DNA of 64,000 nucleotides from Acarospora socialis (taxonomy: Eukaryota > Ascomycota > Lecanoromycetes > Acarosporales > Acarosporaceae). Both the position numbers and the translations under genes were made by a program. Below are positions 56,805 to 64,000 of this stretch, piece by piece. Under the pieces are notes generated by a model. That model saw only the letters and a program-made list of their open reading frames with translations, made no database searches and was not told the origin of the DNA. The stretch lies in assembly GCA_025617375.2 (NCBI GenBank), contig JAMYGW020000004.1, positions 1,240,001-1,304,000 of the forward strand, written 5' to 3'. Positions within the stretch are counted from its first letter, which is position 1. Each line of letters begins with the position of its first letter.

Positions 56805-58970
56805 ATGAGCGGTACTGCTGGCCCTACCATTGTTCAAGCCCAGAGAGACCGCCCGTGCGATGCCTGCCGAAAGCGGAAGGCTCGCTGTTTGATGAGTGAA
56901 CGACAGTCAAGCTGCGTAGCTTGTGGCTCTCACGGTCAGGAATGTACCTTTGTTAATGGTCCCCAGCCTCGGAAACGGAAGGTAGAAAGCGAAGGGCAAG
57001 AAGGCGACGTTACGAAGAAACGGTATTAAACGCCCTCTCCAGGCAACATCAGATGATTGATAGCTCATCAATGTAGAACATCGGAGCCGGGGTTGCGCCC
57101 ACTGCGCGAATTCAAAGCGACACCGAAAGCCGACATCAAGATCGAAGATAAATATGCTCTTCCCAACGATGCAGGCAATGGACAAAGGGAGCTACCGCGA
57201 CGAATTTCTCCGCTTAGCATGCAGCGACAAAGCAGATATATCGGCGACACGACGGAGTTGGAACCAATGTTCTTCGACCTTGTACCATTCGACGCTAATG
57301 GCGAAAGTACGACTTTGGCCGGAAGGTTGCGAAGAAAAGGCGATGGTCCTACCTTCATTGAGTTGCATGATGAAGCAAACGATGAGCTGGAAGCCAACAT
57401 GTCGGTTCTGGCCGAACTGGATGCCATCGTGAAGCCACACGGCCCGGCTCTTGTCGACCTCTACTTTAGCGTCATTCACCCTAGCTTTCCTGTGGTTGAT
57501 GAGCAAACTTTTCGTCAGGAATATGTTCATGGCTATAATGCATTTTCTCCGGAGCTGCTAGCTGGTGTCTATGTTGTGGCTTCACAGTGGTGGACGGAGG
57601 ATGCTCGATTGGTGGCATCTCAACGGCCTGACATCGAACTGTTGGAGGACATGGCGTTACGGCTTATCGGGGACGCCCTGCATCGGCCACGTCTATCCAC
57701 CGTCCAAGCCGGTCTCGTGATCGCGCAGCGACCGTTTGGCGAGTCGAGAGAATTGATGGCGCAGCTGGTGAACATTGGGTATGAGTTGGGCCTTCACCTC
57801 GACTGCTCCACGTGGACGATGCCAGCTTGGGAGATTTCTTTGAGAAGGAGGCTAGCTTGGGCATTGTACATGCAAGATAAATGGAGCTCCTTAATATATG
57901 GTCGACCATCGCAGATATCAAAGGTCAATTGGGCCGTGAGGCCGCTCAGTCGAAATGATTTCCCTACCAACGCGGGAGAGGTGGAGGGAGATGACGAGTC
58001 TGGTGAATTGGAGAAGGGCTGGACTTTATACATCGAGATGGTTGCCCTCACGGAGATTCTCTCCGAGGTGTTGGACACCTTCTACACACTGCAAGCAACG
58101 CGAGAATTCCAAGGTGCAGGCGGTAATGCAACCAGGGTGATTCTCGAAAGAGCGAAACCTGTACAGATAAAGCTCAAAGACTGGTTCTCTCGGCTATCAA
58201 GTCTGCTCAAGGTTGAAGGCAGCATCTCGGGAAAGCTCTCGTCAACCGGTCTGATCTTCTCAAAGATTCTTGGGAACTGTTGCTGACTGCCGGGATTAGG
58301 CTCCCTTCATCTCGCATACTTCGCTACAGAAATCACCTTGCACCGCTGCATCATCCGATCGCTAAGCACCAGCGGTGCTGATCCCTACCTCCATCATATC
58401 TGTCGCTCTGCGGCAAAGACTCGCCTGATATCTGCGATGGAGTTTGTGAACCGACTGAAGCCTAAGCAGCTCCAAGCGTTCTGGTATTTCGCCTCGAAGA
58501 TCAACTTTGCCTTGATCGGTACCTTTGGCAGCCTTTTGCGCGCTACCGCACCCGCGAGAGAAGAAGCCGAATTCTACAGATCCAGGCTACAGGAATATCG
58601 GTGGACGTTGAGCGTGGGCTGCAACAGTGCGCCTTTTCTAAGTTTCTCGGTCAGGTCACTGGACACTTCCTCCAGTTTTTTGGTAAATATGGCCGAGAAG
58701 CCATCGGTTTCAACAGCCAGTCATTCCAATACTACATCGGCTCAGAGCGTCTCACCTCCCCGCGATACCATCCTGACCGACATGTCATCGCCCCATGTCG
58801 GGCAAATCCCAGGTTACTTCGATTCCAGCTACAGAACCTTTTCGCAACAGCACATGCCGGGTGGCTTCTCGTCAACTGCCTCCGGTCTTGCTTCTCCGTC
58901 GACGTCGACGTCGACCTCTGATGGGTCCGTTAGCCAGGAAGCGTTTTCAGCGCCATTTTCGAGCTATTAA
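56805..58970 (+). CDS. Zn2Cys6 transcription factor, TamA/Dal81-like
   Basis: Fungal binuclear zinc cluster regulator, nuclear. Model: join(56805..57022, 57077..58248, 58300..58970), 686 aa, introns 54 and 51 bp. The zinc cluster is near residues 18-48: RPCDACRKRKARC, then SSCVACGSHGQEC (six Cys). A basic tail follows (QPRKRKVE). The middle homology region resembles Aspergillus TamA and yeast Dal81: VKPHGPALVDLYFSVIHPSF, LAGVYVVASQWW, LSTVQAGLVIAQ, GLHLDCSTWTMPAWEISLRR and RLAWALYMQDKWSSLIYGRP. The last ~130 residues are Ser/Thr-rich, fitting an activation domain. In yeast, Dal81 is needed for induction of allophanate, urea and GABA genes, and the neighbour here is an allophanate-hydrolase-type enzyme. 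Dal81 family membership is by recalled similarity, not a search. Confidence 0.83.
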
Positions 58971-59535: not shown

Positions 59536-60465
59536 ATGCCCCGCAAACCTTTAACAGAGCAGACCGATCACTGGTCATCCAAGGTATTATTTTACCCTTC
59601 CGTCGCAGCTGTACATTCCACACGCTAAGCCCTTAGCACCCACCAGGCCTACACCACCTCCGCCGCCTTCGTCCCCCAACTCGCGACCAAAATCACCCGA
59701 TGGCTCGACCCCCAACCAACCGATACGATCCTCGACCTCGGCTGCGGCGACGGCGTGCTCACCGTGCAGATCGCGTCCAGCGCACACACGGTCCTCGGCC
59801 TCGACGCCTCGGCCTCGATGATCGCGACGGCGCAAGCTAAATACGAACGGCCCGACAACAACGACAACAGCACCCCGCACCAAAGCCGCTTCCGCGTCCT
59901 CGACTGCCGCCACCTCGACCACGACCCCTCCATCGTGAACGGCACCTTCGACAAGGTCTTCTCGAACGCGGCGCTGCACTGGATCCTGCACGACAGCGAC
60001 ACGCGCGCGTCGACGCTCCGGGCCGTCCACGCGGCGCTGAAGCCCAACGGCGCGTTCGTCTTCGAGATGGGCGGCGCGGGCAACGTCGCCGAGGTGCATG
60101 CGGCGCTGATCGCGGCGGTGGCGCGGCGGCCGGGCGTGGGGCTGCGGCGGGCGAGGGCGGCGTCGCCGTGGTGGTTTCCGTCGGATAAGGCGATGGCGGG
60201 GGTGTTGGAGGAGGCGGGGTTTGAGGTCGATTGGTTGGAGATGGAGTACAGGCCGACGAAGCTGACGGCGGAGGAGGGGGGTGGGTTGGAGGGGTGGGTG
60301 AGGTTGATGGGGGCAGCGTTTCTGGAGTGCGTGGAGGAGGGGGAGGGGAGGGAGGATGTGGTGAGGGAGGTGTGTGGGGTGTTGGAGAGTGTGGTGACGC
60401 ATGAGGAGGATGGGAGTGCGTGGTTGGGGTATGTGAGGTTGAGGGGGGTCGCCAGTAAGCGGTAG
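59536..60465 (+). CDS. SAM-dependent methyltransferase (class I, trans-aconitate-methyltransferase-like)
   Basis: Small soluble methyltransferase, substrate unknown. Model: join(59536..59583, 59647..60465), 288 aa; the 63-bp intron is phase 0. Exon 1 gives MPRKPLTEQTDHWSSK, then AYTTSAAFVPQLATKITRWL. SAM-binding motif I is ILDLGCGDGVLTVQIA, the acidic residue ending strand 2 is in VLGLDASASMIATAQ, motif II is RFRVLDCRHL, and motif IV is FDKVFSNAALHWILHD, followed by LKPNGAFVFEMGGAGN. The arrangement and the NAALHW motif fit the Tam/UbiE-type group. From about 59650 the coding strand is very GC-rich, clearly above its flanks. That gives long antisense frames and could reflect biased codon use or foreign origin; the sequence alone does not decide. 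Confidence 0.85.
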
Positions 60466-61045: not shown

Positions 61046-61229
61046 TCCATGGCTGACAAGCAAATTTCTCCACCCTTACGGAGTAATCCATTGTACATAC
61101 TCTAAGATACTTGACCCAAAGACATTCGCCTCTCTTTACAGCACCTGGGAAGAGTTTGATCACAGTCCTGACACTGTCACGTGGAGCTGAAGCAAGATCT
61201 ATACCCTGACAGGCATCTTTAGACTTATA
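61046..61229 (+). repeat. Left copy of diverged direct duplication
   Basis: Shares scattered blocks in the same order with 62472-62633: CCATGGCTGACAAGCAAA, CTCTAAGAT, a GTCCTG-CACTGTCAC block, and a block from GATCTA to CTTATA containing ACCCTGAC. The left copy ends at the very TA (61228-61229) where the outer inverted-repeat element begins. Confidence 0.6.
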
Positions 61230-61389
61230 CAGTGCCTATGCGAAAATTCGTGCCGCAACCCAGAGGAGCGAGGGACACACCAAAAAAAATGAAGAGAGGT
61301 TCATCCACATAGCTCAACCACTCACACATATGATTTGAGACTGCAAATTCAGGATCTAATAGATCTGACTGAGTACAGTTGATTATGTA

Positions 61390-61972
61390 AGAGTGAGCGC
61401 TTGATACCTGCAATTCACTGAGCCAAAAGACCACTATAACTGCGCAATTATCGCTAAGAACCTACCTATTAAACTGTAGTACTCCGTACGAAGACAATTG
61501 AGAAGATTCTTCGCCACCGTCCAGCTTGACCTATTTACATAGGATCACAAGAAGAACAACATAATCTTGCAGCAAAGACTTTCAAATGTTGCAGAACGAG
61601 AAATAATCAAGCTGAAGTACCTCAGATGCAGCTGTTATACCTAGTCTCAGCTAGGTATGGGACTTTTGGGACTACTTTGTTGTCAGTCGTAAAGTCTTGG
61701 GACTGGCGAAGAATTTTGTCAGTCGCCATCATACCAGTGCGGCGCCTCCAACGCCCGTCACGCGCTGGGCACCGCTCAAGGCCTCACCTCTAACGCTGTA
61801 AGGGTACGCGTAATAGGCGAGGCCTAGAGCGGTGCCCCGCACATGACGGGCAGTGTGGCTGCCGCGCTGGTACTACAGTTATATAGGAACTTAGCGATAA
61901 CTGCGCCATATGAGCGCAGTTATAGTGGTCTTTACCTCAAGTGAATTGCTTGTGTTACTAAGCGCTCACTCT
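61390..61972. mobile_element. Second TA-flanked element, inserted in the outer one
   Basis: Terminal inverted repeats start AGAGTGAGCGCTT (61390) and end AAGCGCTCACTCT (61972), with TA on each outer side (61388-61389 and 61973-61974). The arms stay similar for about 90-100 bases with small gaps, including CAATTCACT, AAAGACCACTATAACTGCGC, TTATCGCTAAG and ACTGTAGTA. Without the element inside it, it is about 444 bp. Non-coding. Confidence 0.8.
61734..61870. mobile_element. Innermost GC-rich palindromic element (137 bp)
   Basis: A near-palindrome: 56-bp arms matching at 44 positions, separated by a ~25-bp centre. Ends are CCAGTGCGGC and GCCGCGCTGG, with TA on both sides (61732-61733 and 61871-61872). 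GC-rich in contrast with its AT-richer host element. It lies inside the right half of the 61390-61972 element, just outside that element's right arm. Confidence 0.82.
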
Positions 61973-62145
61973 TACAAACGCATACCCTTACAAATCATCA
62001 CATAGACAGCTATCAGAAACACTGTATATTGTATGAGTTTCATGAATATCAATGTCTGTGAATTTCAGTCACAAATTCTTGACTGTCAGACATTTTCAAA
62101 AAGTATATTATAGTATGTATCTTAAAATCCCAAGAATTCATATTA

Positions 62146-62332
62146 GGGTGGCCGCACGGGTCAGTATTTTTGACTTGTTTGACCCGGGGCTAAACCATTT
62201 TGGGACAATAAATTACACACTTTGGTAATTAATGTTTAGGGCAACCAGAAAATGGTAAATTACATGTAATTTATGTAATTTATTTTTTATTACAGGAGGT
62301 GCACGGATTAATACTGACCCGTGCGGCCACCC
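62146..62332. mobile_element. 187-bp TA-flanked MITE with perfect 23-bp ends
   Basis: Terminal inverted repeats of 23 bp match perfectly (62146-62168 and 62310-62332; start GGGTGGCCGCACGGGTCAG), with TA on each side (62144-62145 and 62333-62334). The centre is AT-rich (repeated GTAATTTA-like words). Its right end is 5 bp from the outer element's right inverted repeat, so it landed inside that older element. Perfect ends suggest it is among the youngest insertions here. Confidence 0.87.
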
Positions 62333-62471
62333 TAGCCGTGTGTCCCTCGCTCCTCTGGGTTGCGGCACGAATTTTCGCATAGCACTACTGTAGACCTTGT
62401 ATCCTGAGATTGCCCCTATAATAAAATTATTGAGTATATCTCCACTTTGATAGGAACATACAATGATCAGT

Positions 62472-62633
62472 TCCATGGCTGACAAGCAAACCTCTCCAGC
62501 CTATCTCTAAGATGAAAAGAGGGTTACGACGGTCCTGTCACTGTCACATCAACTGTGTACCACAGTACGTATGAGGTAAGCGAGATCTCTCAAAGGCGAT
62601 CTAGACCCTGACGACGGTCTTTAAGCTTATAAG
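62472..62633 (+). repeat. Right copy of diverged direct duplication
   Basis: Counterpart of 61046-61229 on the other side of the nest, same orientation. The best block (62472-62500) matches the left copy at 26 of 29 positions. Confidence 0.6.
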
Positions 62634-62855
62634 CTAGCGCGTTTTGAACTCCACCTCCGTAACATTCCTTTCATGTACAACGCCACATTCTCGATGATAT
62701 ATTCACTTGACTATTTGCCATGGACGATGAGTGATGTCTTACGGCGGATATCCAATGAGTCCTAAATAACCACTGAGTACCACTAAAGATTCGCCAGTCG
62801 CATTACTGGAGCAGGTGGGAGGGCCGAGAATATTGACGGTACCTCTCGACGGATT

Positions 62856-64000
62856 ATGAACTCTACAAATGGGGACGACGGCTCCGGGCATACCCCAGTG
62901 GGACATGATCGCGTGAAAGATTTTAACAGCTTGAAACAGTCTCTATCTAGGACTCCGAATGGATCTCATGACCATTTACCTCCTCAAGCTGAAGACAATT
63001 CTGCGCTCACCGATGAAGTTCGACGATCGCCCAAGTCAAACAAAAGCAGTCCTCCTCTCTTCGTTGACATACCTAAATTAGCCAGTCCAGCGAATATAGC
63101 CTTCGCTGCTCTTCAGTACCTGCCCACGCCACTCTTGGTTCTCTCGTCCTCTTCGAAGTGTATAGTTCTGGCGAACGAAGCGATGGGAAGGCTACTAGGT
63201 CTCACACAATCAGGGGCGCTCCAGAAGGTGCATGGGGATGGAGAAGTGCAGGAACTGTCTGTGAGCGATGTGCTTCGGGGGCAAACGTTGTCTCAGATTG
63301 GTGTGGACATGCTCCAGGATGGGGAGCCAGTCTGGGCTGATTGGGAGGTATGAAAACCGGGAATTTGTTGACCAATCTTCAAGGCTAAAGATTTTAGAAA
63401 TGTCTTGATCGCCTAGCAGATGAAATGGACAAGGTTGCCGCCGAAGATGAAGCAGAGGGCGAAGGTTCGGCGGCAACTCAAAACAGCACAGTGTCAGCAC
63501 CGGCAACTGCGCGGAAGCAACATACAGATGGTCTACAACCTGGAGGGAATGAGAGGAAAGCATCAAACATGGCCAGGAAGTCCCCAGGGGTACATGATGC
63601 AGTTGTCAATGTTATCCTTTCAGCACAACCCATACAATCCGACACGGTTTCTTCGGATGTCAAGCAAAGACCTATGTCGTTGGAGAATCAAGTGCAGGCG
63701 AACATGATCATTTCCATATGGAACTTGGATAAACAGAAGTACTTCACGTTGACCTTCACGAGCACAGCCCCAGCCGGTCCTCCCTCAACCACTGAACAGT
63801 CACGGACCGTATCCAGAGCACCCAATCGGTTATCCTTGTCACCTAGATCCGGTACAAGCCAACCGTCATCGAATGGTTCAGGAACTAACTCTACCTCCAG
63901 CGCCCGCTCCCCGTCAGTGAGACTTACCTCTCCAACAAGCATCCCCCTTTCACTAGCACCCTTCCCTCTGGCCGGTCCTCCATCATATTCAAATCTGGCT
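62856..64000 (+). CDS. PAS-type sensor protein, probable hybrid histidine kinase (5' part)
   Basis: Only the N-terminal ~365 residues are in the window. Exons: 62856..63347 and 63398 to the right edge, with a 50-bp phase-0 intron (GTATGA / TTTTAG), still open at 64000. After a polar N-terminus comes a PAS-like fold: ANIAFAALQYLPTPLLVLSS, CIVLANEAMGRLLGL, then SDVLRGQTLSQIGVDMLQDG and WADWE, joined to KCLDRLADEMDKVAAEDE. A second part (ENQVQANMIISIWNLDKQKY, FTLTFTSTAP) reads like the start of another PAS module interrupted by Ser/Pro-rich sequence. This plan fits fungal multi-PAS hybrid histidine kinases, but the kinase and receiver domains are not in view, so that part is inference. The ATG at 62856 is the first in frame. 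Confidence 0.65.

Follow-up and report, generated by a model that had tools for sequence, protein, structure and literature searches.

Fungal Tc1-Mariner MITEs of 481–813 nt have been published (excerpted text of PMC4188875), while TRIMs are described in plants, bivalves, an ant and a tapeworm in the portions of that literature at hand. Mutation signatures of fungal repeats have been reported for the contexts CpA, CpT and CpG, and the string CpC is absent from the accessible part of that report (PMC4352252). According to the portion consulted of a further source, CpA is the usual context, with CpG in Microbotryum and CpG together with CpA in A. nidulans (PMC2621366). In Rhizoctonia, a CpG-biased case in which CpC was counted too is given in the available part of PMC4014442.

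Against this background, the locus described here is a nest of five insertions from four families: the TA MITEs D, A and B, and two LTR-like units of one family, LTR1 and LTR2. The nest itself is real and all of its families belong to known kinds. It lies in a stretch of 64,000 nucleotides (contig C4, 1240001–1304000; below, the window) of a 31.1-Mb genome in 38 contigs, between a methyltransferase-like frame (59755–60465) and another frame starting at 62856. A stretch of about 2.4 kb between two predicted frames took in all five insertions. The GC content of the nest block is 0.38–0.49 (500-bp steps), and a Fungal_trans protein is encoded at 57057–58286 of the window; such gene content suggests a filamentous fungus. 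The features are as follows.

61046 to 61076, plus strand: left core of a diverged flanking direct repeat (full left copy 61046–61229)
61230 to 62390, no strand: D, outer TA element, TA at 61228–61229 and 62391–62392, ends CAGTG...
61230 to 61280, plus strand: left terminal inverted repeat of D, 45-nt perfect core, 98% over 50 nt
61386 to 61992, minus strand: LTR2, solo-LTR-like unit split by A and LTR1 and seated in D at a 5-bp slot
61480 to 61488, plus strand: TACTCCGTA next to A, with 7 bp that 17 of 19 aligned genomic LTR copies lack
61489 to 61731, no strand: A, 243-bp TA MITE, TA at 61487–61488 and 61732–61733, inserted in LTR2
61797 to 61976, plus strand: LTR1, 180-bp solo-LTR-like unit, TGTAAGGG...CTCTTACA, inserted in LTR2
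62146 to 62332, no strand: B, 187-bp TA MITE, TA at 62144–62145 and 62333–62334, inserted in D
62338 to 62390, minus strand: right terminal inverted repeat of D, pairing with the left one
62472 to 62502, plus strand: right core of the diverged flanking direct repeat (full right copy 62472–62636)

The arrangement, with LTR2 in D, LTR1 and A in LTR2, and B in D, is in our view very probably correct. Boundaries, duplications, copies elsewhere and uninterrupted homologues at the slots of LTR2 and A were all observed. The order of arrival can indeed be read from the nesting, as an earlier sequence-only reading of this DNA had claimed, but it differs from the order proposed there. In a first step, D, a non-autonomous element of Tc1/mariner type, would have entered a TA. 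Second, an element of the small LTR family would have inserted into D in minus orientation, duplicating 5 bp, and is now represented by the solo LTR named LTR2. The next two steps could have occurred in either order. In one, LTR1 would have inserted into LTR2 in plus orientation, with AACGC duplicated; in the other, the Tc1-type MITE A would have inserted at a TA elsewhere in LTR2. B would have inserted at a TA in D's right part at some point after the arrival of D. We infer that D, A and B were moved in trans by Tc1/mariner transposases, and that the LTR units would have arisen by reverse transcription followed by LTR-LTR recombination.

All three TA elements have terminal inverted repeats and several dispersed copies, and in the window each is flanked by a TA target duplication. 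Elsewhere, TA was seen in the flanked alignments of D and B, with exceptions. The outer element had been recognized correctly as a 1161-bp unit: 45-nt perfect inverted ends (61236–61280 and 62338–62382) with TA directly outside 61230 and 62390, whereas exact arms reached at most 24 nt (mean of the longest arm 10.8) when these 1161 bp were resampled 200 times under a first-order Markov model. If inserts and duplications are subtracted, D comprises 360 bp. The end sequences of the nest were expected to be dispersed, and copies of A, B and the LTR family were found elsewhere (all genome counts for A, B, LTR and D are lower bounds), but the exact outer end of D is rare. Only three other places were found within 3 mismatches, and more distant relatives exist. 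A genome search with an insert-free D query gave relatives whose sequence continues across the site of the presumed second element. Ten relatives were fetched (L083–L092), eight of which are uninterrupted at the slot of LTR2 (e.g. TTGATTCTCACA, ...GATT(C/T)TCACA... or similar), while the window copy reads TT-GATTA-insert-AATCA-TCACA, with a 5-bp slot; L083 and L089 gave no alignment there. The right part of D, with the slot of B, is unaligned in the relatives; the empty-slot comparisons cover the slots of LTR2 and A. Palindromes were analyzed in nine relatives (without L083): five (L084, L085, L087, L090, L091) are near full-length palindromes of 467–588 bp with a self-complementarity of 69–78%. 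Of the other four, L088 contains a 38-nt inverted pair, and none is present in L086, L089 or L092. The ends of the D family mostly read TA-CAGTGCTAT..., and a D-end pattern matched 24 places in the genome vs 4 for the reversed pattern. One pair of D-like ends bounds DDE_3 matches (L093, C17:66138–68199); its inverted ends, CAATGCTATGCGAAAG..., are 74 bp long and 94.6% identical, its DDE_3 frames are broken, and its end is related, not identical, to that of D (70% over 50 nt, E 0.018). L092 combines a D body with ends like those on C17. L093 is the likely helper of D, although only a relative. Another pair of inverted D-like ends, 4.2 kb apart on contig C1 (L082:2089–6289, about 3793588–3797788), encloses an FAD-dependent oxidoreductase (DAO) and two further frames, for which a Pfam search gave no match. 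On the left, this pair is flanked by CA instead of TA. Perhaps genes were caught between transposon ends here.

The repeated landing in one small block had been taken as a hint of a safe haven or of a preference for element interiors. Five insertions within 1.16 kb, without further copies of the nest families found in the 64-kb window, seem to favor a role of the block as a safe haven, or as a functional structure to which insertions are drawn or in which they are retained. About 60 located copies in 31 Mb correspond to roughly 0.002 per 1.2 kb, a rough estimate from lower-bound counts. However, only one of 46 other loci (17 of A, 11 of B and 18 of the LTR family, with about 1.5 kb on each side) holds a second nest family, namely a D fragment about 550 bp from a B copy (L024); this test used BLAST, which very diverged D copies may escape. 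Consequently, the accumulation seems to be a peculiarity of this one block, be it through tolerance or through chance, and we regard a role as safe haven or functional structure as unlikely. The stack itself would be without function.

The two LTR-like units start with TGTAAGGG and finish with CTCTTACA (TGTAAG...CTTACA). Without its inserts LTR2 measures 169 bp and can be aligned to LTR1 throughout its length. LTR1 is flanked by a perfect duplication, AACGC at 61792–61796 and 61977–61981, and 61977–61992 is the head of LTR2, severed by LTR1. The slot of LTR2, GATTA (61381–61385) and AATCA (61993–61997), is identical at three of five positions and is thus an imperfect duplication. The family has at least 18 other loci, and an alignment combined 19 genomic copies with the two arms of the window. 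Ten units with both ends recognized (seven loci identified by script, LTR1, LTR2 and the pair in L046; the LTR heads of L045 and L047, shifted one base from the script position, were read from the letters) allow their 5-bp duplications to be compared. Six are identical (L036, L043, L047, L049, LTR1 and the L046 pair), while four of five positions agree in L039 and L045, three in LTR2 and one in L040. Hence the family shows TG...CA termini and a fixed short target duplication. In a single case, L046 (1122–1656, 535 bp), two direct LTRs (81% over 166 nt) enclose an interior of about 200 bp, with CTCTG on both sides. A primer binding site or polypurine tract was not recognized by eye in this mutated interior, nor was a coding element of this LTR family encountered.

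One might instead take these units for a DNA transposon whose ends are short TGTAAG motifs and whose insertion duplicates 5 bp. Inverted ends of 6–8 nt and the fact that most copies are single would fit, as would the lack of a recognized reverse transcriptase nearby, judged from a listing of the long frames at the 18 loci. However, L046 holds two direct copies and an interior inside one 5-bp duplication, although this is one case. Two direct repeats that flank an interior within one duplication are the arrangement made by LTR elements. We therefore consider the DNA transposon very unlikely and continue to treat LTR1 and LTR2 as solo LTRs.

This assignment also changes how the inner inverted repeats have to be understood. 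The sequence-only reading had described four TA-flanked elements of distinct families. Two of these, D and B, are indeed dispersed non-autonomous TA elements, while the second and third dissolve into two LTR-like copies of one family, and the real third TA element, A (61489–61731), had been missed. The TA flanks of the presumed second element are the inner letters of the TGTAAG/CTTACA ends, and its genomic copies terminate in TTACA, in several cases next to a 5-bp duplication. The presumed third element (61734–61870) is not an element of its own: the inverted repeat 61732–61796/61808–61872 is the meeting point of LTR1 and LTR2, head to head. Its left TA is the target duplication of A, its right TA lies within the LTR's own GTAC. 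Self-inverted repeats were sought at 17 LTR loci and a long one appeared in L055 only. It is thus highly improbable that four nested Tc1/mariner-type elements (61230–62390, 61390–61972, 61734–61870, 62146–62332) built the block, since, although TA dinucleotides do adjoin all four inverted repeats, copies of the second unit end TGTAAG/TTACA, with a 5-bp duplication in most of those whose two ends could be recognized, and the segment absent from LTR copies is 61489–61731 rather than 61734–61870, which the genome search never found as a unit, both halves matching the same places and being met only as the right half joined to an LTR arm (e.g. query 64–243, 82–243) or as the inverted left half. The nest hence illustrates how misleading inverted repeats can be, as two opposite LTRs mimicked two TA elements.

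Element A was found at no fewer than 18 candidate places in the genome, the window included. Its slot is read straight through by 17 of the 19 genomic LTR copies (18 loci), while the other two, L051 and L056, have diverged too far in this part. With fuzzy matching, TA precedes 49 and GTA 42 of 55 A ends (a set that includes some false internal matches), and A inserts usually at GTAC. A search with the A-end pattern gave 37 places vs 0 for the reversed control. Two A-type ends bound a 1.3-kb element with a DDE_3 match (L094, C6:1218006–1219304). Its inverted ends are 59 bp long and 96.6% identical, with identical 30-nt termini, and enclose an unbroken frame of 306 aa with DDE_3 and HTH_Tnp_Tc3_2, the sole PDB match of which at E 0.001 is the Sleeping Beauty transposase (E 4.5e-14). 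From these similarities L094 is likely the helper of A, with a Tc1-type transposase, and it is possibly still able to move. The anticipated transposase with matching ends has thus been located for A as an open frame and for D as a relative with related ends and broken frames (L093), but not for B: a search with B's end pattern gave eight matches, all of them B copies. With respect to excision footprints beside A, 5 of 49 TA-preceded ends abut one of eight short TA-N-TA motifs, while in the control, the 496 flanks of the window's 248 GTAC sites, 43 do; this is no clear excess.

B, the fourth element of the earlier description, was confirmed, with TA on either side and 25-nt perfect arms when TA is included. 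It occurs at 12 or more places, the window and 11 others. Among 11 copies compared, the window copy has the highest GC content. Ten of the 11 other copies (L031 was left out owing to poor alignment) differ from it by 9–33 C-to-T/G-to-A changes and 0–2 reverse ones; consequently, if taken as ancestor, the window copy looks the least mutated. A B-like stretch (70%, 100 bp) in L069, beside a DDE_1 relic, was not counted as a partner, as it may be shared AT-rich sequence. Inverted ends were found around DDE_1 matches at 9 of 17 loci within 1.5-kb flanks, which may be too short; inspection by eye showed mostly TAACG-type ends and none like those of D, A or B.

Another aspect of the window is a 9-mer, TACGGAGTA/TACTCCGTA, which occurs eight times vs 0.37 expected (6835, 44707, 55609, 55634, 59347, 60643, 61077 and 61480), and GTACAGTAC occurs ten times vs 0.52 expected. 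The motif is rarer in the other DNA fetched (2 sites in about 227 kb). Within LTR2 it sits at GTAC, and 17 of the 19 LTR copies keep GTAC without the 7 bp. More cautiously, we suggest that TACGGAGTA may originate when 7 bp are inserted at GTAC, for instance as an excision footprint (61480–61486). When homologues of eight TACGGAGTA contexts were sought, seven matched only themselves and that of L038 gave one weak extra match (E 0.001), in a search insensitive enough to miss a known window repeat at 62472 as well. In the available text of PMC12153272, CTACGGAGTA is over-represented in A. fumigatus Af293 and is a repeat at Tardis Starships, for which a transcription-factor site is suggested. The left flanking repeat carries TACGGAGTA and the right copy lacks it, in a poor alignment. 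D starts exactly where the left flanking copy ends (CTTATA).

Besides the nest, mutated transposon copies of this genome show a mutation context that may matter more than the nest. Comparison of an open 577-aa DDE_1 copy (L065) with a relic (L068) gave 106 C-to-T/G-to-A changes, 5 reverse changes and one transversion. The C-to-T changes lie on both strands and, by 3' neighbor, affect 61/220 CC and 41/114 CG, vs 3/273 CA and 1/260 CT. In the DDE_3 pair L108 to L106, the values are 12/67 CC, 10/32 CG, 1/73 CA and 1/69 CT, and in the ten pooled copies of B (L021–L030) 140/268 CC, 59/113 CG, 17/244 CA and 8/88 CT. The CpC/CpG context was thus seen in three families: DDE_1 (pogo/Fot1-type), DDE_3 and the 187-bp MITE B. 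A heavier relic, L071, compared with L065, has 178/221 CC, 60/114 CG, 30/275 CA and 38/260 CT, and in relics of greater divergence CpA and CpT were lost as well (up to about 45% of CpA). Copies of A and of the LTR family show a weak or mixed bias, and the D pairs compared show no clear one. Among stop codons within transposase matches, TGA accounts for 53 of 75 in one set of matches and 15 of 18 in another, which is what CGA-to-TGA and TGG-to-TGA changes would give. Read from such comparisons, repeats were probably inactivated by a RIP-like process that targets C before C or G and spares CpA, and which the window copy of B would largely have escaped. If true, such a process needs a cytosine methyltransferase or deaminase with CpS preference. 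In the parts consulted of the fungal literature on mutation context we found no CpC-led repeat mutation, which is not proof of its absence. If CpC and CpG are the target and CpA is spared, a target change in RIP-like defence would become directly testable.

Taken together, D, A and B resemble fungal Tc1/mariner MITEs in being short and non-coding, and in their inverted ends and TA duplication; A and, with related ends, D also have transposase-bearing relatives. In contrast, five of nine D relatives are nearly full-length palindromes, and A favors GTAC. The LTR family recalls TRIMs and solo LTRs, since L046 has two direct LTRs, a gene-free interior of about 200 bp and a 5-bp duplication, while, unlike in TRIMs, no primer binding site was recognized by eye in its mutated interior. 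The mutation of the repeats shares with RIP the C-to-T changes on both strands of repeated transposon copies, with few transversions in close pairs. In contrast to classical RIP, C-to-T changes in L065/L068 and L108/L106 do not fall mainly at CpA: in such close pairs CpA is nearly spared, and it is C before C or G that is hit.
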